Source: Hesseltinella vesiculosa
Taxonomy: Eukaryota; Mucoromycota; Mucoromycetes; Mucorales; Cunninghamellaceae
Assembly (NCBI GenBank): GCA_002104935.1
Contig: MCGT01000007.1
Span: 558,001 to 622,000 of the forward strand
DNA length: 64,000 bases
Direction: 5' to 3'
How positions within the stretch are numbered: the first letter of the stretch is position 1; the number at the start of each line of letters is the position of its first letter. The notes below the pieces were generated by a model. The model saw only the letters and a program-made list of their open reading frames with translations. It was not told the DNA's origin and searched no databases. The translations under genes and the position numbers were made by a program. Positions 4,031-44,122 of this stretch are shown here, one piece after another.

Positions 4031-5020
4031 GGATCAACAATGGGATATAAGGAGATGTACACTACACGTACAAAGAGGAGGGGCAGAGGGAAAAGTAAAA
4101 GCACAAGCCGAAAATAGAAGCTAAACGTCGAGTTTGAACAATGAAAAAAAGTGAGAGTGAAAAGAAAAAGAAAAGCAGAAGTGCATGAGAAAAAAAATAA
4201 AAAAAGCCCGGAGTTTTGGTTTTTTGACCTTTCTCAATGGAGGGCAAAAACGAGAGGATGTGCGTGATAGTTGCAATCAACATTTTCGTGTATCCAAATC
4301 GGGGACCGTTGCCCGACTCATGTGTTTTATGTTCATAAAGCACACCATCATTTTAAAGAGCATTCTTTCATAATAAACGAGGACGTTCAGAGACTTCACG
4401 GATACGAACACTAGGGCTTGAAATCGCCCAATAAAATCCATTTTCTGTTTTTGGAAATCGTGCTCTTCCCTCCAGCGGTCTGAGAGGAACAAATTTAGTC
4501 AAGGTCATTTCTCACCATTATGTACTGGTATGCAAAAGTTGGGATGACTTTACTTTGAATAATTTTGCACTGTGATCTTTGATCTTTGCCTGGGGGGTCC
4601 CTGGCGAAATTGACTATCTCGTGCACAGCTTCAATCCCCCCCCCCCGCCTTCCCTTCCTCTTTTTTTTTTTTTGCTATATATTCTGCTTTTTTATTTATT
4701 TTATTTTTCTATGGTTGAGCACCGAACAGATTCGGTAGGTTGATTTGTTTCACTTTTTGTCCCAACCACTCAAAATATTTTTATCATGAATAAAGGTGTC
4801 ATATTTACATGTAGAGCGTACATTTTTTTAATGAAGAAGTGTATCAAATCTAGCCTCCGCACAGACCTTTCAATTTCTGGCTGGTGCTCGTTTTTTTTTT
4901 TTTTTTTTGACGGTATCTCTCAATTCGTATCGCGTAAGAATCTCGATGCTCGTTCGATCGCTACGCCCTTGATATTCTTGTTCAGCCTAGAAATTGTGTC
5001 CAAGTTAGTGTATATTTGGT
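4031..5020. other. Gene-poor intergenic region
   Basis: About 1 kb without a supportable gene. It holds homopolymer runs, including a C-run near 4636-4646 and a T-run near 4890-4908, and only short ORFs. A minus-strand stretch near 4490-4380 reads as about 40 coherent residues but has no start, no recognised family and no clear splice partners. Confidence 0.4.
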
Positions 5021-6775: not shown

Positions 6776-9043
6776 CTAATCCGTGTTCTTCCACACAGCA
6801 TCACACATGCGGGCGGTTTCGACCATTGGACGCACATCATGGACACGGAGGATATTGGCTTTGCCAGCGATGCTTGCGGCAACAGCAGCAGCAGTGCCAT
6901 AGGAGCGTTGGTTGGGTTGATCGACGCCGGTGATCTTGCCTATGAACTTCTTCCGGCTAGGGCCAACCAGCATCGGGAAGCCTTCGAGGAGAGCATCGTC
7001 GGCCACCATATCACCCAAGTGACGAAGGATCTTCAGGTCTTGATCGACAGTTTTGGCAAAGCCGACACCAGGGTCCAGCACCATGTTCCAGCGATACACC
7101 CCGGCAGCAAGGGCGCGCTGGACGAGGCCATAGATGTCTTGACAGATCACCTGAACAACGTCGTCTTCATAGGTGGTGTTGGTCTTGTTCATCATGGTAT
7201 GTGCGTCGCCACGCATGTGCATCAGACACACAGGAGCCTTGGACTTGGCCATGACTTGCAGCATGCGGGGATCACGTGTGCCGCCGCTGATGTCGTTGAT
7301 CATGTCGGCGCCAGCAGCCAAGGCAGCCTCGGCCACCGAAGCGCGGAAGGTGTCGATGGAGATGGGCAGAGCAAAGCCTTGCTGGCGTAGTTGTGTGATC
7401 ACGGGCACGACGCGGCGGATCTCTTCGTCTTCTGGGAAGGTGTCGTCAGCACCTGGGCGGGTAGACATGCCGCCAATGTCGATGATATCTGCGCCTTGTT
7501 CTTGCATGGAGAGGGCAGCCTGCACAGCCTTGCCGACGTCGATATAGTCGCCACCGTCCGAGAAGCTGTCGGGAGTTGTGTTGAGAATGCCCATGATGTA
7601 GGTCTGCTTGTGCCATGGCCAGAGCGAGCGTTGCTGGTGCTGGATGGGAATCACTTTGTTGATCTGGACCAGACCTTCCTCTGATTCGGCCTTGACTTTC
7701 AGCAGTTGTGACAGTAGCTGGCCGCAGGTTTTGTACAGGCGCGGGTGTTCGACATCCTTGGCGACGTCACAGAGAGGATAGAGCACGAATTCACGTTCCT
7801 GGAGGCTGGCATGGGGGATGATCAGGTCGGGCGTGTTGAGGACCAGGTTGTTGTAAAAAAGAATGTCGAGATCGATGGGGCGAGGCGCATTGCGGAAGCT
7901 GGCTTCCCGGCCCATTTGCTCTTCAATGGCCTTGAGTTGGGCGAGCAAGGCAGGAGGGTCGAGGCTGGTGGCGACTTTGCAGACGGCGTTCAAAAAGGCA
8001 GGCTGTTCAGTGTAGTACATGGGCGGTGTTTCGTACAAGAAGCTGGTATCGACGACCACGCATTGAGCTTGTGATTCCAGCAGGTCGAGGGCTTGATGCA
8101 GATGAGCGACCCGGTCGCCCAGGTTCGAGCCAAGGGCAAGATAGGCAGTGTGGGCATAGTCGGGAGGGATGTCCTTGCCTTGGGTTTGCTGGGTCAACAC
8201 GCCGTGGATATGGGCGTGGCCAGCCTTGCGTTCTTCTTCCAGGACTTGCTGCAGCCACTGGCGATCGCGGGTGACTTCCATGCCAGAGGCATCGGCAAAC
8301 AGGATGGCACTGGGCTTTTCCAGACACACACGGATCTTGTTGATGTGGCACTTTTCCAGAGCCACACGAGCGACGGCGACGGCAAAGGCTTCCAAGGTTT
8401 TGAAGCCCGAGGCTTCGATGTAGCGCGTAAGGGTACGAACCAGGGTGCGCAGGTGGTAGGACTGTGAGGAGGAGGCAACAGCTGGGGAGGCCGGGTAAAG
8501 GAGCGTGGAGGGGTAGATGGTCAGGTTGACAATGACGATCTGTTTTTCCTCTCGTTCCCAAGGGTTGACGCCGATGATGGTGTGGAGCTTCAGGTCTTTG
8601 ACAAACAGCATGTCTTCATAGCCGAGTTTGGACACGTCGCCCAAAGTATCAGTGACGGCTTCGTCGGAAAAGTCTTGACGGGTGCGGGACAGTTGGATAC
8701 CAGAGGCAGCCGCATGTAAAAGCGCCTTAGGCTGCTCAACTTTGACCATGGTGCGCTCGGCTCCAAAATGCACACAGCACAGTTTGACGACCGCATGAGC
8801 AAGGGCTTCCAAAGACTGGTAGGTGTTGGTTTCGGCCAGTTTGGTGATCCCTTTCGTAACATGGCCATAATGGATAGAGTTAGTGACGTGATCGGTGTCG
8901 CCAGCAGCGGTGATGTCCGTGTAAAGCCAGACGCTGATAACCACAGGCTGGGACTTGGCGCGCTGCCAGGAGTCCACACCCGTGACATTGCGCACCGTTA
9001 GATTCTTGATGAGGATCTTATCGAGTTCCTTGACTGATTCCAT
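6776..9043 (-). CDS. FOL1: Trifunctional folate synthesis protein (DHNA-HPPK-DHPS)
   Basis: One uninterrupted 755-aa ORF carrying three consecutive folate-pathway activities: dihydroneopterin aldolase, hydroxymethyl-dihydropterin pyrophosphokinase and dihydropteroate synthase. Domains in order: two tandem DHNA-type (FolB) repeats, about residues 5-125 and 135-275; HPPK from about 300 with ALGSNLGDR and later RPIDLDIL; DHPS from about 485 with GILNTTPDSFSDGG, the DIGGMSTRPGA block and a C-terminal GPSRKKF. This is the usual fungal architecture and length. DHPS is the sulfonamide target. The start at 9043 follows a poly(A/T) block (A22 on the plus strand at 9088-9109). It is one of very few intronless long genes here. 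Identification is secure. Confidence 0.97.
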   Translation of the reverse strand: MESVKELDKILIKNLTVRNVTGVDSWQRAKSQPVVISVWLYTDITAAGDTDHVTNSIHYGHVTKGITKLAETNTYQSLEALAHAVVKLCCVHFGAERTMVKVEQPKALLHAAASGIQLSRTRQDFSDEAVTDTLGDVSKLGYEDMLFVKDLKLHTIIGVNPWEREEKQIVIVNLTIYPSTLLYPASPAVASSSQSYHLRTLVRTLTRYIEASGFKTLEAFAVAVARVALEKCHINKIRVCLEKPSAILFADASGMEVTRDRQWLQQVLEEERKAGHAHIHGVLTQQTQGKDIPPDYAHTAYLALGSNLGDRVAHLHQALDLLESQAQCVVVDTSFLYETPPMYYTEQPAFLNAVCKVATSLDPPALLAQLKAIEEQMGREASFRNAPRPIDLDILFYNNLVLNTPDLIIPHASLQEREFVLYPLCDVAKDVEHPRLYKTCGQLLSQLLKVKAESEEGLVQINKVIPIQHQQRSLWPWHKQTYIMGILNTTPDSFSDGGDYIDVGKAVQAALSMQEQGADIIDIGGMSTRPGADDTFPEDEEIRRVVPVITQLRQQGFALPISIDTFRASVAEAALAAGADMINDISGGTRDPRMLQVMAKSKAPVCLMHMRGDAHTMMNKTNTTYEDDVVQVICQDIYGLVQRALAAGVYRWNMVLDPGVGFAKTVDQDLKILRHLGDMVADDALLEGFPMLVGPSRKKFIGKITGVDQPNQRSYGTAAAVAASIAGKANILRVHDVRPMVETARMCDAVWKNTD

Positions 9044-35496: not shown

Positions 35497-35698
35497 TTCG
35501 CAGCACTGTGATAGAATTCAAAGCGAATAAAGCAACACAGTCTATCACAAAATGGTGTAACTAGGGAATCAGAGGTGTCAAAACGAAGCGGGCAGCCTTT
35601 TATTAATCGACCTGATTTTTTCCGTATCACCATCGTTCATGTATTTTCGCAATTGTTCAAAATTTCACATCGATAGCATCACTCAATCATTTCAAACG

Positions 35699-35750
35699 TA
35701 CTGCGCGCAGCGTTTGCTTTTTTATGAAGAAAAAAAAATCGCATTGCCAT
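35699..35750. repeat. Dispersed repeat, partial copy
   Basis: A short copy beginning tactgcgcgcagcg and passing through a T-rich then A-run segment, parallel to 35949-35990. The adjoining bases near 35757-35775 (gccatattcagcc) also match the reverse complement of part of the 43.3-kb copy. Confidence 0.4.
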
Positions 35751-35948
35751 ATTCAGCCTTCGCACAGAGCCATCGGCGCTGGCTGCTGCATGAGGGCAAA
35801 TCCAAATCGAGTCGAAGGTCTCAGCTCCAGCCTTCTCCTAAGCAACCCAAAAATCCAAAGTCCCGATTTCAAGAAATGCTGTCAGTACGATGGCCATGTC
35901 GCACTTGACGATGGCACTTTTGCCCTGTGTGCATGGCCTGGAATCGAA

Positions 35949-36100
35949 GTTACTGCGCGGAGATTGCTTTTCATTTTGAAAAAAAAAAGGTTTTAACACA
36001 GTGCTTTTGAGTGGTTCTATCGATGTAAGATTTTGAACGAATGCACAAATGCGTGAACGATGATGACACGGAAAAATCAGGTCAAAGTGGAATTTGGCAT
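35949..36100. repeat. Dispersed repeat, copy A
   Basis: Shares with 43291-43446 the ordered blocks ttcattttgaaaaaaaaaa, tgcttttg-gtggt, atcgac-t-a-attttg, gcacaaatgcgtgaacgatgatg and gaaaaatcaggtcaa, with scattered substitutions. No ORF is conserved between copies. Confidence 0.6.
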
Positions 36101-36735
36101 GGGTGCAAGCCCTTGTGAATGGCATGGATACTAAGAAAATACCCCCCCCAAAGTTCATTGGTGAGCTCACAAATGGAAAAACGATAGTTTGTTAGCTGGT
36201 TCAAATTCCTCTCCATTCCCGCTGATCAATTTTAGGAGGATGGAAAAGACAATAGCAGCCTGGGGATTATTTATATTTCCTTTGATTTTTGCTATATCCT
36301 AGGACGTTGAAAAAACAGATCGATCGTGCTTTATTTTATTATTAATCCAGATCCATGTCCGCTACACTATTGCTCAAGCCAAACTGCCAAGTAGATGTTG
36401 AACGTGCTGCAACTGAACATCAGCATACATCAGCTACCCACCACCACCCACCAAGTAAAAGTAATAGGTTTATTTTGTGACATCTTCAAGATGATGTCTG
36501 TTCGTTTATTTTAATACAGGCCATTCAAGTTGTTGTGTGGTACGTGTGTGCATATGATGCGAGTGTCTGCCATGGTAAAAGGAAGGCGCCAAGAGATAGC
36601 AATGCCATTGGGGTCGGAGGAGAGGTATTACGTGAGGGGTTGGTGATTTTGATTTGCTGCAAGCAGCTGAGGGCAAGTTATTATGCCATGCGATTTTGAA
36701 TGATGTTTTTTTTTCTTTTTTTTTTTATCGCATAT

Positions 36736-36803
36736 TTTTTGGAGGATTGCGCTTTTTGGAGGATTGTGCTTTTTGGAGGATTGTGCTTTTTGCAGGATTG
36801 CGC
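36736..36803. repeat. 17-bp tandem repeat, four units
   Basis: Four consecutive 17-bp units of tttttggaggattgYgc at 36736-36752, 36753-36769, 36770-36786 and 36787-36803; the last has one G-to-C change. The period is not a multiple of three, so it is not a protein repeat. Confidence 0.85.
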
Positions 36804-39241
36804 AGTTGTTCGAGTTTGAGTCATCCTCGGTCAAAATTCAAGATAAATGCATAGTCATTGTTCAGCGAAGAGCCAACCGCTTGTCACAGATTTGTTCGCG
36901 TTCCCCATCCAGATGAAGTTCAAATGCGCGTACAAACGCTTTCTTGTCCTGGGTTCCTTAAGTCGAATCGTGGCCATTTTTTACCAGACAGAGCACCACT
37001 GCAATCATACACACACACTACCACGCCAGGCAAAATGCCAAAAGTCGCTTGTATCGCCATGTAAACTTGAATAAAACCTTGATGTATTAAAAAAAAAAGT
37101 GAGCATCAACCGCCTTGCATCCATTTGTATCCCATCAACGTAACCTTATTTATCGCGGCAGCCAGAGGATTTACTTGAGCCAGAGAGTTGCTTCGAGTAT
37201 GCCATCATAAAAGTGTGTTGCCATTTACTTTCCGCCAATGAGATGTCAACTGTTCCACCACACTAAAAAAATCATCTCGTTATGCCTGTGCTCTAGCAGT
37301 CTTTATCATAACCACACCTTCATAAAAACTTACCTACCACCAAATGCAACCGAGGTTTTGCTTGAAAAAGATCCACTGACCCAACCAGGTAATGTCAGAG
37401 GTGCGTTTTGATAGATGTTGTCAGGTAGAGAGTGCTCCAAAAGTAGACCCCTACCATGAAAATAAAAAGTGTCAGTGCTTAAGAAGATGGCTTCCATAGT
37501 GTAGCTCCCTTTCACAAACATGCTTACTTGCGCCCAAAGATGCCAATGGTTTCTTCCCTTGCCTTGCCTCGTGTATGACGACCGGTTCAATAATGCCACC
37601 ATACAAATTACCACCAACGAGAGTGTAAAGTGCCTTCATAATCGAGTATTCAGAAATGATAGCCAATTCCACCAAAGTCTTGTGCTCCCAAGAGAGTACT
37701 ATGCTTGCCAGAGGTTTACAGCACCAACATCCACCAACAACCCAACGCGTTGCTTCCCACAAAGTTCCCTTTTGTTCATGCATTGTGCTTGACCATTGAC
37801 GACGTTGTAACCAAAAAAATGAAAAATCCAACCCAAAGGGGACAATGGCATGCTGTGAGAGTGACCTAGCAGCCAGGTTTCCCAAAAAAAAAAAATGCTT
37901 CCCACTATAAAAAAGAGAGGTGTAAGTTTCAGCCTATTTCCTTGCCCAGTAATGCAACCAAAACTTACCATATCACCAAAATGCGACCAACGATTGCTTG
38001 ATAATATCGATTGCTCCACCATGACTGATTTGTGTTGAGAGTGACAAAGAGAAATGTCTTGAACGTTGACAATCATGTGTAATGGTTGCCAAAGAGGACT
38101 GGCATGACTCAAATGGACTAAGAGTCAAAGGTAGTTGGCCAGCAATATCGAGAGTCTGACCTTACTGCTTGACAAGGCAGAGGATGTGACATCTTCACGT
38201 ACCTGACACGTTGCTGATCTGTCATTGATTTGGCCAGGTACACTGGTGCATCTCTCGCCCATCCATTGATTTCAGGGCATTAGCCACCATTGCCTGTGGC
38301 AAAAAAAAAAAAGTCCATAGCTTGATTGATATGTTGACCAAAGGGTAACTTGAAGCCAGTCATGCCAAGGGGTGCAGCCTTGACAGGCCCATAGATCAAA
38401 ACGAGAGGGCCATCACAGGTACTTCAGCGCATGGCCAATAGTAGACGATCTTGGTAAATACGTACGCGCTAGCCATAGGTATAAACGACCAAGGCTTGGC
38501 TTGGCTTGTACCATCACGATACAACACCACCTGTGTTGACATAGTTGACTTGATACCAGAGCCGCCTGTCTTGGTGGGCAGTAGTTTGGGCTCAGAGTTG
38601 CGAGGCTGGAGGTCAGGGCTTGTTTAAGATGACTGCCAGTAGGGTGCTATGACGACAGCTGGGCTTCCACTGTCCCCAGGATCCCGGCGGGCAGTGTCAC
38701 CAGCAACTGAACTTTTTTTTTGATAGCACGGAGCAACAATACCCGTACATTCCCTCATGATCCCAAAGCCTAGAGGCAAAAAGAAGCCATGCCACATAGC
38801 CCAGCATATGCCAATGATTTGACCGTTTGGAGTCAAAGCAAAGACGCCGTGCTAGAGGAGGCCTGGCCAACCACCAAGTTTCCTGTCTCTCGCGAAAAAA
38901 AAAAAAAAAAATAGGTCAATGCATCTGATCAGCAAAGCATTTCAGCGTTTTTTTTTTCCAGCTCTGACGTACCATTCAGTCCAAAACATGAAAAAAGGTA
39001 TTGTTGCTTTGACGTGTGCGTTTTCTTTGCATGCTTTTTCTTTGCATGCGTTTTTTTTTTTTTCGTTCTTTCGTTGCTTTTGGTGAACGCTGCCCTGTGG
39101 GACCCCACTGGGAACAGGGGAAGCGTCGTCATAGCATTGCCTACCAACAAGTCATCCAAGCGCCGGAGAAGACAACCAGCCAGAGTTTGGAGCCAGAGCC
39201 AGACCAAGACAGGACACCAGAAAGACCAGCGAGTGGTGGCC

Positions 39242-42114
39242 TTAGTTTTGGCCACCTCGCGAGAACATGTCCTTCATGACTATAAGAAAAAAAAAATAAG
39301 ATCACTATCAGAACGAAATAAAATGTGTAGGTGAACAGAGTGATAACTTACGCAACATGTTCTCGCGAGAAAAATGGGGTGGAGCCACCTCCACCCCAGA
39401 ACCAAATTCCGCACCAAAGTTGGTGCCAGGAAGCACACGATGTACTTCCTGGCACAGAGCAGCATTGGCCAGGGTGCGGCTGGTCAGCCACCCAGCACCA
39501 GAAGAGCCTGCCAAAGCCTTAACCGCCCTCTTGGCTGCAATTGCCGCCTTTGTGGTGGAGCGGCGAGGGCGGAAAGAGAGAGGCTTTGGCTTGGGCTTGG
39601 GCTCTGCTGGGCGGCGTTGACGAGCCAGCTTGCCTAAGACCAGGAAAAAAATAATGACAGGTCAACAACATGTAAGATTTTTTTTTTTTTGACTTACCCC
39701 GAATGCCCTTTTCGCTTAGCTTGCGGGGGGCAAGGGGGCAAGCTAACAGGGCGGCATAGTGTGCCGTATGCGGGCCCGTCGCCCGGCGAACAGGGCCCGC
39801 AACCAAAACAACGCCAGGGAGAACAGGCAAAACTGCGCCCCAGCCAAGGGCAAGGGAGGACCATGGCCAGACGGCCGGAACAGTGGCAGACGCGCCCGCA
39901 CCAGACGAGCGACCAACTAAGAATATAAAAACCGTGCGTTACATCAATTTCGCTTGGCCATCACTCCGTTTTTTTTTTTTTTTTTTTGAACAACTTACAC
40001 TTCGAGCCACGACGGCCTACAAGAATAATATGGGATAGCAATAAATGTAAGTGTCAGATAGAAAACGCTGTTTTCTTTAAATTGATGATGCTTACCAGAG
40101 AAACGTTCATTGTCCTCTCCGTGCCCGCGTCGCTTTTTGCCTGCGACGCGAGCAGGGACAGGAGCAGAAGCAGCAACAGGGCCAACAACAGGGCCAGCAG
40201 GGCCAACAACCGGGCCAACAACAGGGCCAACAACAGGGCCAACAACAGGGCCAACAACAGGGCCAACAACAGGGCCAACAACAGGGCCAACAGGGCCAGC
40301 AACAGGGCCAACAACAGGGCCAGCAACAGGGCCAACAGGGCCAGCAACATGGCCAGCAACAGGGCCAGCAACAGGGCCAACAGGGCCAACAGGGCCAGCA
40401 ACAGGGCCAGCAGCAGGAGCAGCGGCGGCGGCAACGCCGGCAGCAGAAAAAGCGGCGCCGGGAACAACGGCAGCAGCAACAGCGGCGGCAACAAGACGGG
40501 CAGCAGCATCACCAGGGACAGCTGCAGGTACAGCTGCAAGAACTGCAGCTGCGGTAGCTGCAGCCACCGAGAAAAGAGGAACCACCGAAGCAGGAACACC
40601 GACGACGGAGGCAGCGACAGCAGCGGGATCGACGGCTGCTGCTGCAGCTGCTGCAGCTGCAGGAACAGCAGCAGAAAAGTCACCAGCACTAGGGACAGAA
40701 GCAATGGCAGTGACGGCTGCTGCTGCGGCAGCGGCAGCGGCTGCAGTCAGTCTGATTGCCGTTGCGTTGGCAACGGCAAGGTTGATGTCAAACCCAGGCA
40801 CAATGGGGCCTGGTGCCTGGGCGGTGTGGCATGCACCTAAAATAAAAAGGGTGATACTTAGAGACTATGATCTTGACATCCTTTTTTTTTTTTTTTTGCT
40901 TACTCTTAATGCCACGACGGGCTATAGAAAAAAAATGAGAAGTGAGTTTCATTGGGCTCTGGTTTCCTCCCCGACAAAGGGTAATGAACTTACCAGCAAA
41001 ACGGGTATCGTCGTTGCCACCTGCGTTACGTTTGGTGGCGTTGAAAGGAGAGGCAGGGGCAGAAGTCAGAGAAGCAGTGGTGGTGGCATAGGGCATAGAA
41101 GACGGAGCATAGGGCATAGAGGAGGGGGCATAGGGCATAGAAGGAGAGGCATAGGGGGCATAGGGCATAGATGAAGAAGAGGCATAAGGCATAGAGGAGG
41201 GGGCATAGGAGGTATTTTCTGGGTTTTCTACTGCATTTTCTAATGTAAATAAAGCAAAGAAACTTTTGTTGAATTATTCACGATCTTATTTGTGTCCTCC
41301 TGATGGTAGGTTCAACTTACTTTTGGTGATTTTTTCTATGGTAGGCAATGATTAAAAAAAGAAATAGGTGAATCCTCTTTCTGGAAACGCTTTACAGCCA
41401 GATTCAAACTTACGGGTGTTTTCTAGTCGAGTCAAACACAAGAAGCAGATTAAGAGAGGTGTTGGTTAGTCCGACTCGTTTCGTAACAGTCAGATCCAAA
41501 TTCTTACCATTTTTTTCTATGCGGAGAAGAAGAAATCAAAAAGTCAGCGATCTTTGCATGAAAGACAATTCTTGGAGAGTGGTTGACTTTTCTTTTTTTT
41601 TAAACCATTTTTTTTTCATTTTGTGAATGTCACTTACTGTTTTTTTTATCTAGAGTAGCAATGGAATAATAAAAGTAACAAAAAAGCAGTTAAAAACATG
41701 CAGTTGCTTAGTTCTTGTTTTTCGAAGCACTTACCATTATCATCGGCGGGAACTGAACCGGAAAAGGCATCTTGAAAAAAAAAAAAAAAAAAAAAAAAGC
41801 AATGTTGAGTAAACAAACGTTGCAATAAGCAATGGTAATGCCCAGCACGTAGCCAATGGAGTCTATAACCAAAACTTACAAATGGAGGCACTAAGGCCAG
41901 AAGCATGGGAAGATGGAACGGTGGAAGCACCGGAAGTAGCAGTAGCAGAAGCACGGGAAGCAGCACGAACGTCGTCTATTGAGTAAAATGGCACAAAATC
42001 AAATCAAAAAATAAAAAAAGCAGATGATATGATTAGCACAAATGCATCTACCAACTGGTATCCATCTAATCTATTAGATTTAGGTAGATGGCAATGTTTC
42101 TTACCGGTAGTCAT
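39242..42114 (-). CDS. Micro-exon gene encoding Ala/Gly-Pro-Val repeat protein (function unknown)
   Basis: Fourteen exons join to 582 aa: 42114-42105, 41975-41880, 41770-41735, 41649-41638, 41516-41508, 41422-41414, 41335-41321, 41239-40994, 40921-40904, 40836-40096, 40016-39999, 39916-39698, 39633-39352 and 39279-39242. All 13 introns are GT-AG and phase 1, so all 12 internal exons are multiples of three (9, 9, 12, 15, 18, 18, 36, 96, 219, 246, 282 and 741 nt). The protein is low complexity: Ser/Ala/Thr start, a Lys/Asn-rich micro-exon stretch, SSMPYA repeats, a long Ala-rich tract, GPVVGPV repeats, and a basic tail (KLARQRR; EPKPKPKP). Two 18-nt exons encode near-identical ARRGIK and GRRGSK. 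There is no signal peptide, TM segment or family match that I recognise. The model rests on consistent splice sites and an uninterrupted frame. Confidence 0.72.
40174..40420. repeat. In-frame GGGCCAACAACA-type minisatellite inside exon 10
   Basis: Tandem units of 12 bp (gggccaacaaca) mixed with 9-bp and variant units (gggccagcaaca, gggccaacag). On the minus coding strand they give GPVVGPV and GPVAGPV repeats. All units are multiples of three, so copy-number change keeps the frame. The same property opens long spurious ORFs on both strands. Confidence 0.85.
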
Positions 42115-42422
42115 CTTGTCAATCAGGGAAAGAAAAAGAGAAAAAGAGAAAAAGAAACAAACATCCTCGACCTTTTTACTGGCAACTTTCAGTTACAGCC
42201 AATCAGATACCAGCATTCGATCCCTTTTCTTTGCGTTATCCTGAGGTGCCATGTATGATCATGGCCACCATTGAAGTACATTTATTTGACAGCACTTGAA
42301 AACATTCAAAGGAAATGAAAAGAGAGGTCCAGTTAAGTGCTTCCGTGGTGGAAGCTTGTAATGCTCGGCTTGATTGAATCGAAGAAACAGCCGCAGCTAC
42401 TTTTGAAGTCGACGAAGATCCA
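42115..42422. promoter_or_regulatory. Upstream region of the micro-exon gene
   Basis: The first ~40 bases upstream of the start (42124-42155) are CT-rich on the coding strand, with repeated ctttttctc units, a pattern seen upstream of other starts here. No TATA box is evident. Confidence 0.4.
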
Positions 42423-42678
42423 CTACGCAAAAAGCTGCAAGACACTTCCACACAAAAACGCGAGGAGTGAGAGAAGGAATGGCTTATCTTCTCTCCAATG
42501 TTCAACATTCTCTAGATCCTCACCATAACTTCAGACAGGACAGGTTTTATGAGGAAAAAACGAAATGAGTTTGATAAAATAAAAAAACCTACGACATAAA
42601 ATGCCCCTGTGTCTCTTCAGTGAACGTTGTCTCCTGGCTAATTCGTGCTCCATACGTTCGTTGATTGTCAAGTTCCAT
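42423..42678 (-). CDS. Possible small membrane-protein gene or 3' exons (unrecognised)
   Basis: Two segments, 42678-42592 and 42522-42423 approximately, join through a GTAGGT...GAAG intron into a coherent frame: MELDNQRTYG, then EETQGHFMSYGEDLENVEHW, then a hydrophobic LLSLLAFLCGSVLQLF end. The result is roughly 60 aa. A separate hydrophobic ORF at 43062-42880 (ending EPSGLP) lies upstream on the same strand and could be spliced to it through a GCAAGT donor near 42920. No family is recognised and the start is uncertain. Confidence 0.3.
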
Positions 42679-42879
42679 TCTTGCAGAGGAGGGTTGCAAG
42701 GTGAAGTAATAATACAAAAGATCAGTGTCTAGCTGCCTTTATGCTAGCCATCCTTGCAGAGAGCACCCAAAAAAAAAAAAAAAAAAACTGCACAGCGATT
42801 GGCATGGACAGTACGGACCTGATAATTTTCGCTGAGGAGGGATATCATAACCGTACTCGGCTACGTATGTACAATGGGG

Positions 42880-43110
42880 TCAAGGTAGGCCTGATGGTTC
42901 AGTCATTGGCGTGGCCACTTGCTTTTGAGAAGGCTCCTCTTCTTGGTATGGCAAGAGCTCGTCCACTAAATTGACAAGAAGGACAACGAGAAGGACAAAG
43001 CGCCCAAAGAGATTGACAATGAAATTCCATGCGAGTGTGGCAAATTGTAATCCAAATTGCAAGAGTCCTTTCAGCGCAAGGGCAAGGTACTCGAAGAGTG
43101 TAGGTGGGTG
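42880..43110 (-). other. Unassigned hydrophobic ORF fragment
   Basis: Minus-strand frame without an ATG that reads EYLALALKGLLQFGLQF, then FIVNLFGRFVLLVVLLVNLVDELL and an acidic QEEEPSQ tail. Composition fits a membrane protein exon with two hydrophobic helices. It may belong with 42678-42423 or be a relic. Confidence 0.3.
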
Positions 43111-43290
43111 TAAAATTTTGTTAGAAATAAACGAAGCAAGTGATTCAGTCAGAATCTTTCTAGGCTTATTTTAATTCTAAAATAGAACGAAGAAGAAAAA
43201 GAAAACACAACAAACAAAAACAAAAAATGAATAAATAGCTCTTCAAGGTTAATTCTTCAAGATGGTGGGCTCAATGGTTGATGAATCAGG

Positions 43291-43446
43291 AGGTACTTGG
43301 CGGAGGCTGAATATGGCCATGGGTTATTCTTCATTTTGAAAAAAAAAAAATCATGCGCTGCACAGCACTTTTGGGTGGTCAGATCGACCTTAAATTTTGC
43401 AAGGGAACGCAAATGCATGAATGATGATGGTGCTGAAAAACTCAAG
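43291..43446. repeat. Dispersed repeat, copy B
   Basis: Second long copy of the element at 35949-36100, starting near ggtacttggcggaggctg and running through ttcattttgaaaaaaaaaaaa to gctgaaaaactcaagtcaa. It is same-strand relative to copy A. Confidence 0.6.
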
Positions 43447-44122
43447 TCAATTGGTGAAGGTCGCCCAGCCAACTTTCGATCTGTTTTATTTTGACACTTC
43501 CGATTCCCCAGCTTAAAAAAATGAAAAATCAGTCATTTTCGCCAGGGATAGATAGATAGCAACCATCATGTCGATGCACTGCATTCATTTATAAATGTCG
43601 CAGTTAAAATAGATACTTGTCACAATTTAAAAAAAAAAAGAAAGAATGTCCACGAATGGCGAAGAGAGAGCAACCAAGGAGACACCATAAAAGAAGTAGG
43701 CAAAACTTGAAATAAAAAGAGGATGTGAGGGGGATTCATTATGGTTAGGCGACAGGACTGGCGGCAAAAATTCGCTGTTGTTTAAAAATGGTAATGAACC
43801 AGCTATCCCAAGGGAAGAAAAAAAAACAGAAGAGGACAAAGACAGAAATGATAGCGTGTGCACTTGACATACTGCTTTCTCGTGCACTGTAATAATTTAG
43901 CTGTTCATCCGATTAGTAAGTATCCTCGCTAAAAAAAATTGTACACGGCTTGGGTTTTTTTTCTTGAAAAAATACGGTTTCTTTTTTTTATGATCAACTC
44001 GCAGAGAACAGTCTATAGAAGTTAAATTACAACAACGATGTAAAAATAAATGTATACAAATATAAATATAAAAAAAAAAGGGGGGGGGGGGGAAACGATG
44101 AGAGATTGGTGAAGGGTTGATT
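43447..44122. other. Intergenic region downstream of the P5 ATPase gene
   Basis: No ORF is supportable. An A-run/G-run block (about nine A followed by about thirteen G) lies at 44070-44092, within the probable 3' flank of the P5 ATPase gene. Confidence 0.4.

Follow-up and report, generated by a model that had tools for sequence, protein, structure and literature searches.

A gene of Hesseltinella vesiculosa in which every intron interrupts the reading frame in the same phase, and in which six internal exons measure only 9 to 18 nt, raises the question of whether such symmetry serves splicing or the evolution of the gene within the genome, two roles of exon symmetry that are usually merged and that this locus allows to be separated. 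The gene lies in a stretch of 64,000 nt (herein the window; C67:558001-622000), part of an assembly of 27.05 Mb in 85 contigs that was searched as a whole. A preliminary description had proposed a minus-strand model of 14 exons and 582 amino acids with six internal exons of 9 to 18 nt. Rebuilding the gene from the sequence gave the identical model (Table 1): one open frame of 1749 nt including the stop codon, with 13 of 13 introns bounded by GT...AG (64 to 129 nt) and 13 of 13 junctions in phase 1; the six internal exons of at most 18 nt (exons 4, 5, 6, 7, 9, and 11) were reproduced at 12, 9, 9, 15, 18, and 18 nt. CT-rich stretches such as the one before the start codon are typical of fungal promoters. 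The last intron is flanked by a perfect 14-bp inverted repeat, CTCGCGAGAACATG, whose arms lie in exons 14 and 13 (39256-39269 and 39356-39369). The fungal origin claimed in the preliminary description agrees with another gene of the window, a single-exon trifunctional folate enzyme FOL1 (FolB, HPPK, pterin-binding; 6776-9043, minus strand); among the best 120 of 1191 matches, the named species nearest to its protein are Gongronella butleri (78%), Absidia repens (76%), and Halteromyces radiatus (74%), all of genera of the Mucorales.

Table 1. Positions in the window of the micro-exon gene, its exons, the downstream element, and the duplicated block (copy labels as in the text)
Feature	Position	Strand	Basis or remark
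Micro-exon gene, 14 exons, 13 phase-1 introns, 582 aa	39242..42114	-	Rebuilt from sequence; kept in paralogues
Exon 1, 10 nt	42105..42114	-	Start codon 3' of CT-rich stretch
Exon 2, 96 nt, Ala/Ser/Thr-rich	41880..41975	-	Open and divisible by three in L031-L033
Exon 3, 36 nt, SGSVPADD exon, first part of repeated module	41735..41770	-	Gene model, module comparison
Micro-exon 4, 12 nt	41638..41649	-	Gene model, L028 alignment, module comparison
Micro-exon 5, 9 nt	41508..41516	-	Gene model, L028 alignment, module comparison
Micro-exon 6, 9 nt	41414..41422	-	Gene model, L028 alignment
Micro-exon 7, 15 nt	41321..41335	-	Gene model, L028 alignment
Exon 8, 246 nt, SSMPYA repeats, ends KR..DDxRFA	40994..41239	-	Gene model
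Micro-exon 9, 18 nt, ARRGIK	40904..40921	-	Gene model, copy comparison; missing in L027
Exon 10, 741 nt, Ala and GPV repeats, ends KRR..DxxRFS	40096..40836	-	Length varies with codon model
Micro-exon 11, 18 nt, GRRGSK, echoes exon 9	39999..40016	-	Gene model, paralogue comparison
Exon 12, 219 nt	39698..39916	-	Gene model; length varies with codon model
Exon 13, 282 nt	39352..39633	-	Gene model, genome search; its protein search recovered most family loci
Exon 14, 38 nt including stop	39242..39279	-	Gene model
Conserved foldable element, ~490 nt, closed by 25-pair long-range stem	38645..39150	-	Arms from 39135 and to 38646
Duplicated block carrying the gene, largest extent	36269..43226		Common to C24; shorter versions on C49, C19, C34

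Poly(A) and poly(T) tracts are common in this DNA and the micro-exons are A-rich, and a model of this kind might be assembled from splice consensus that occurs by chance. A splice-chain finder that is free to choose phase returned the same model with a score of 347, whereas 200 dinucleotide shuffles of the locus fell far short (best score 20.9; at most five exons). As the finder was trained on the introns of the window copy and on the coding sequence of its close copies, its score here is partly circular, and the diverged paralogues are the stronger support for the gene model. When the codon table was taken from the other genes of the window the finder again built a 14-exon model, in which, however, exon 10 measured 593 nt, exon 12 measured 169 nt, and two junctions fell in phase 0; because these lengths change with the codon model, the boundaries of the two exons rest on paralogue comparison. 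Elsewhere in the window the finder proposed 14 further gene models, which are unverified and include one with a 1-nt exon; 7 of their 19 introns are in phase 1. For introns independent of one another, that rate would give 13 phase-1 introns in a row with a chance of about 2 per million, but independence fails here because the gene appears to have been built by module duplication.

Protein and DNA searches of the genome yielded a family of 13 loci, the window included, of which 11 are near-complete; these counts are lower bounds, since the DNA searches scored only the best candidates. Four close copies (L024 to L027) share a block of ~6 to 7 kb with the window at ~90 to 95% identity, and six near-complete loci are diverged (L028, L030, L031, L032, L033, and L034). 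Two fragments, L029 (C1:36k) and L035 (C1:1534k), model as pieces only and were left out of the near-complete counts. A candidate fourteenth locus at C12:1205k (L036, L042) was dropped as an unrelated large protein.

The finder reproduces all 14 exons in L028, where the micro-exons again measure 12, 9, 9, 15, 18, and 18 nt. Between this locus and the window copy, the splice sites agree at 26 of 26 GT bases, 25 of 26 AG bases, and 38 of 39 bases at donor positions +3 to +5, against a background of 760 of 977 (78%) in intron bodies; exons are 69% identical (935 of 1365). Exons 1, 3, 5, and 6 are about as conserved as their neighbouring introns or more so, and exon 12 is 58% identical between introns at 84% and 77%. 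Phase-free models of L030, L031, L032, and L034 contain 15, 16, 14, and 16 introns, all in phase 1 except one phase-2 intron in L034, which with L028 makes 73 of 74. L033 is the exception: 8 of its 17 introns are in phase 1 and 9 in phase 0, its alignment with L031 gives exons of 34 and 281 nt in place of 36 and 282, and the copy looks broken. All three of L031, L032, and L033 possess exon 2, which the finder omitted from the first two and altered in the third. The preliminary description had claimed symmetric exons and a low-complexity protein, and the model and paralogues bear these out; the phase in homologues, which it had proposed to check, is conserved, with paralogues of the same genome taken as the homologues, in five of the six diverged near-complete loci and not in L033. 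Given the shuffles, the conservation of splice sites above the intron background, and the phase-free models of diverged paralogues, a chance origin of the model is scarcely credible: the gene family is real and unusual.

The close copies have the same character. All introns modeled by the finder in L024, L026, and L027 are in phase 1 (13/13, 12/12, and 11/11; the finder skipped exon 9 in L026); coding lengths in the five close copies, window copy included, are 1749, 1674, 1803, 1626, and 1581 nt, each divisible by three, and exon gap totals among them are multiples of three. L026 reads through the usual stop. L025 has neither the start codon nor the family upstream region; it begins three bases into the start codon (position 4707), and its intron 2 has no AG end at the aligned place; its start lies ~1.3 kb 3' of a SYO1-like reading frame. 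Of the 11 copies at least two look broken, and decay of this kind could be what the weak selection in the family reflects.

The copies differ in a module that is repeated before exon 8 and consists of an SGSVPADD exon of 36 to 39 nt, an xQKT exon of 12 nt, and a QKN exon of 9 nt, together with their introns. The window copy and L028 have one such module, L030 and L034 three, and L031 about four, as counted with permissive thresholds (a stricter finder run drops one or two exons in L030 and L031); some module copies miss a part or have a first exon of 30 nt. Within L031 the module copies align across exon and intron at 77 to 90% identity. There is an echo toward the C terminus, where a large exon ending KR..D..RF and an 18-nt RRGxK exon occur in succession twice (exons 8-9 and 10-11). 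In L027 exon 9 has gone together with both its introns, and exons 8 and 10 are fused in frame. Because every internal exon is a multiple of three, such duplications and deletions are neutral to the frame. The loci of this fungal family represent different stages of copying, in which duplication of exon-intron units visibly enlarges the micro-exon arrays.

We consider it probable that the locus belongs to a genuine mucoralean protein-coding family whose all-phase-1 layout comes from, and is kept by, tandem duplication and deletion of modules. Exon-intron modules would be duplicated in tandem and deleted repeatedly; as internal exons are all multiples of three, each event would spare the frame, and the all-phase-1 layout would arise and be retained through this turnover. 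The products would vary from copy to copy in length and peptide content under weak constraint, perhaps with diversifying pressure, and exon skipping may add putative isoforms. Comparison of the copies shows diversification at the level of the genome, through module number, in-frame repeat changes, exon loss, and mosaic copies.

The family is likely, though not proven, to be restricted to this lineage. When residues 400 to 582 and an alignment of four paralogues were each searched against 5.8 billion proteins, no homologue from elsewhere passed the thresholds applied. Scoring was limited to 8000 candidates in either search, and low-complexity proteins probably took up many of these places; it is for this reason, together with possible misannotation of micro-exon genes, that restriction is not proven. 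The four paralogue proteins examined all have a pI of 10.4 to 11.0 and a KR..D..RF..RRGxK motif, and none has a strongly hydrophobic N terminus by a hydrophobicity measure alone. In a Pfam scan the 582-aa protein matches MSSP with 28.8 bits (cut-off 21.2) and Mst87F with 22.1 (below its cut-off of 27), in both cases over the GPV repeats; we take these matches to sperm-protein families for an effect of composition. Judged by composition, the products would be basic, mostly disordered, and probably nuclear; a molecular function in the nucleus is a guess, and somewhat doubtful.

Micro-exons in series are known from other organisms. In schistosome micro-exon genes short exons (6 to 36 bp) make up ~80% of the coding sequence and, according to the accessible text of the source, nearly every product is either secreted or anchored in a membrane (PMC5825161). 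The present gene resembles them in its runs of symmetric, very short exons, in belonging to a diverging multi-copy family, and in the possibility of frame-safe skipping. It differs in that internal exons of at most 36 nt amount to 117 of 1749 nt in the window copy, those of at most 18 nt to 81 (~5%), and in that no signal peptide is apparent in the family on hydrophobicity; the earlier statement that this layout defines schistosome micro-exon genes is not supported in that form. Aphid bicycle genes are described in the available portion of PMC9168663 as fast-evolving, rich in micro-exons, and recognised by gene structure and not by sequence; most of their proteins have signal sequences, many but not all have a CYC motif, and their classifier weights phase-2 exons up and phase-1 exons down. 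The likeness is that of a fast-evolving micro-exon family, but here all introns of the window copy are in phase 1 and none of the four paralogue proteins begins with a strongly hydrophobic stretch. The CYC motif, in the form C-Y-C with gaps of up to 4, is likewise absent from all four.

Within the fungi, nank of Tuber melanosporum is an expanded family with multiple codon-sized micro-exons, as summarized in an NLR review (PMC4986451). In these respects it is like the present family, but it combines NACHT and ankyrin domains, and neither Pfam domain is found in the 582-aa protein. Xlr2 of Trichoderma, a transcription factor gene, has a glucose-dependent micro-exon, in a paper whose accessible text states that functional micro-exons were previously undescribed in filamentous fungi (PMC11121469); it too is fungal, but single, and at 20 nt indivisible by three, with no array. 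The SP7-like effectors of Glomeromycotina are another Mucoromycota family with repeats, for which common ancestry has been argued from a conserved intron (PMC11333574); its marks are a signal peptide, a family signature, and an intron ahead of the first repeat. They are secreted and reportedly without hints in Mucoromycotina, and the accessible text of that paper mentions no micro-exon array; the four paralogue proteins examined here lack a strongly hydrophobic N terminus. In the sources available to our literature search there was no description of a micro-exon family of this kind for Mucorales or Mucoromycota, and the search found nothing joining fungal micro-exons with intron phase. The preliminary view that no fungal gene had been described in this way is thus narrowed by nank and stands for Mucorales and Mucoromycota as far as those sources reach; a claim to a first fungal case is limited by the existence of both nank and the Xlr2 paper.

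Exons have diverged more than introns in this family. Across gap-free sites of the five close copies, 199 of 1302 are variable in exons (15.3%), 72 of 850 in introns (8.5%), and 75 of 1609 in the near 3' flank (39241 to 37450; 4.7%); without the repeat exons 8 and 10 the exon figure is 94 of 729. The exon-intron difference has p = 2e-6, with p = 0.005 for non-repeat exons and p = 2e-4 for their third positions, values that are only a guide because sites are linked. Taken pair by pair, non-repeat exons are more divergent than introns in all 10 close pairs. For exons 11 to 13 (a rate table of 36 pairs, L033 and L025 not included), dS is 1.4 to 4.7 times the divergence of introns 10 to 13 in 36/36 pairs. 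At the protein level dN/dS is 0.49 to 0.67 in the 10 close pairs and 0.31 to 0.87 in the 36 pairs for exons 11 to 13, values below 1 that point to weak purifying selection. Decay of CpG is insufficient as a cause, as the excess stays in 10/10 close pairs when CpG-type sites are removed. That introns should change more slowly than exons, synonymous sites included, is contrary to the usual expectation and calls for explanation: introns may be constrained, or homogenised by conversion with the exons kept apart, or exons may mutate faster. Some conversion or recombination does occur, since L026 and L027 group differently by region (42 exon and 17 intron variants are shared, but only 2 in the 3' flank, where 40 are private to L026) and mismatches between L031 and L033 are patchy (0 over the first 14 exons compared, then 8 to 49 in each of the next four); on this comparison the copies are mosaics. 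Modular growth and the inversion of exon and intron rates are the parts most worth following.

Could the symmetry instead serve regulated skipping as in schistosome micro-exon genes or nank, with the many putative isoforms that the preliminary description had suggested? All internal exons could be skipped in frame, nank provides a fungal precedent in print (PMC4986451, in the part available), and the conservation of introns 10 to 13 beyond synonymous sites, and of introns overall beyond exons, is what regulated exons could show. The symmetry, however, is expected equally from module duplication; the micro-exon donors are GTAAG like the other donors of the gene, which fits constitutive inclusion; and the six micro-exons encode only 27 of 582 amino acids, so that we regard regulated skipping as rather unlikely. 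The exon excess just described, in close copies and in exons 11 to 13 and with CpG-type sites removed, could also come from a process that targets spliced messages or coding segments, so that exons are swapped or mutated and introns and flanks stay homogeneous. A second family (L037 to L041, described below) is alike in exon 2, where divergence is 0.064 to 0.084 against 0 to 0.013 in intron 1 in six pairs between two subgroups, with an intron 1 of only 77 nt and a gene model made by inspection. The excess is nevertheless absent from some pairs within subgroups (L037-L038: exon 2 0.009, intron 1 0.013). It reaches p < 0.05 in only 6/10 close pairs without exons 8 and 10, the longer 3' flank (to 36400) without CpG-type sites diverges about as much as introns, the 5' flank is comparable to introns, and in the comparison with L028 exons 1, 3, 5, and 6 are about as conserved as their introns or more so. 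GC-rich repeats mutate faster anyway, and the same pattern would follow if introns were constrained, or if gene conversion went together with selection favouring variability in exons. Exon-directed change of this kind seems very unlikely, and it is quite improbable that families sharing the downstream block undergo directed diversification, in which substitution, changes in repeat length and in module number, and exchange among copies would vary the coding segments, introns, splice sites, and the structured 3' element would stay constant, and the symmetric micro-exons would act as interchangeable cassettes.

Nor do we give much credence to the block as a mobile element or its relic, with the gene a passenger or a decayed element protein. 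Blocks of this size and identity lie on five contigs with differing ends, and some of these ends have palindromic repeats nearby, as such an element might leave them. On the other hand, Pfam identifies neither a transposase nor a reverse transcriptase in the product of the gene, a non-exhaustive inspection recognised no terminal repeats or target duplications at block ends, and dN/dS is below 1; of six neighbouring reading frames run against Pfam, three are ordinary genes (NMO, SYO1-like, and protein kinase) and three have no match. The palindromic repeat near both ends of the block in the window (35605-36085 and 43282-43547) is dispersed, with more than 20 further places in the genome. A segment of ~205 bp upstream of the gene (42676-42884) wholly or partly adjoins the 36397 end in L027 and in L037 to L041, as if units had once been tandem or circular.

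Beginning ~107 nt past the stop codon is an element (39135-38646) that is conserved across diverged copies in an alignment of five loci, where single-base gaps argue that it is non-coding. By exact core words, both arms of its closing stem occur in 10 of 13 loci, L026 has the first arm alone, and the two fragments have neither. Across these ten loci 22 of the 25 pairs stay standard everywhere, and each of the other three is disrupted in a single locus. At one pair both partners are substituted (T-A to C-G), and at four only one partner varies, the pairing still being standard. This is modest support for pairing, because the stem was defined on the window copy and the ten loci represent about two lineages. 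The element outdoes all of 100 shuffles in folding (z = -5.7) and has no match in Rfam at the gathering score; it could be a structured part of the 3' UTR, an RNA in its own right, or an inverted repeat of the DNA.

The second family comprises five copies (L037 to L041, on C21 and C6) of a different gene, which starts MLMFAAAVFSRFF, and has a 1.2-kb block in common with the window (36397-37599). Its members were considered as solo ends of the same element, an idea dropped since they carry that different gene. In L041 a 196-bp tandem repeat occurs ~7.6 times.
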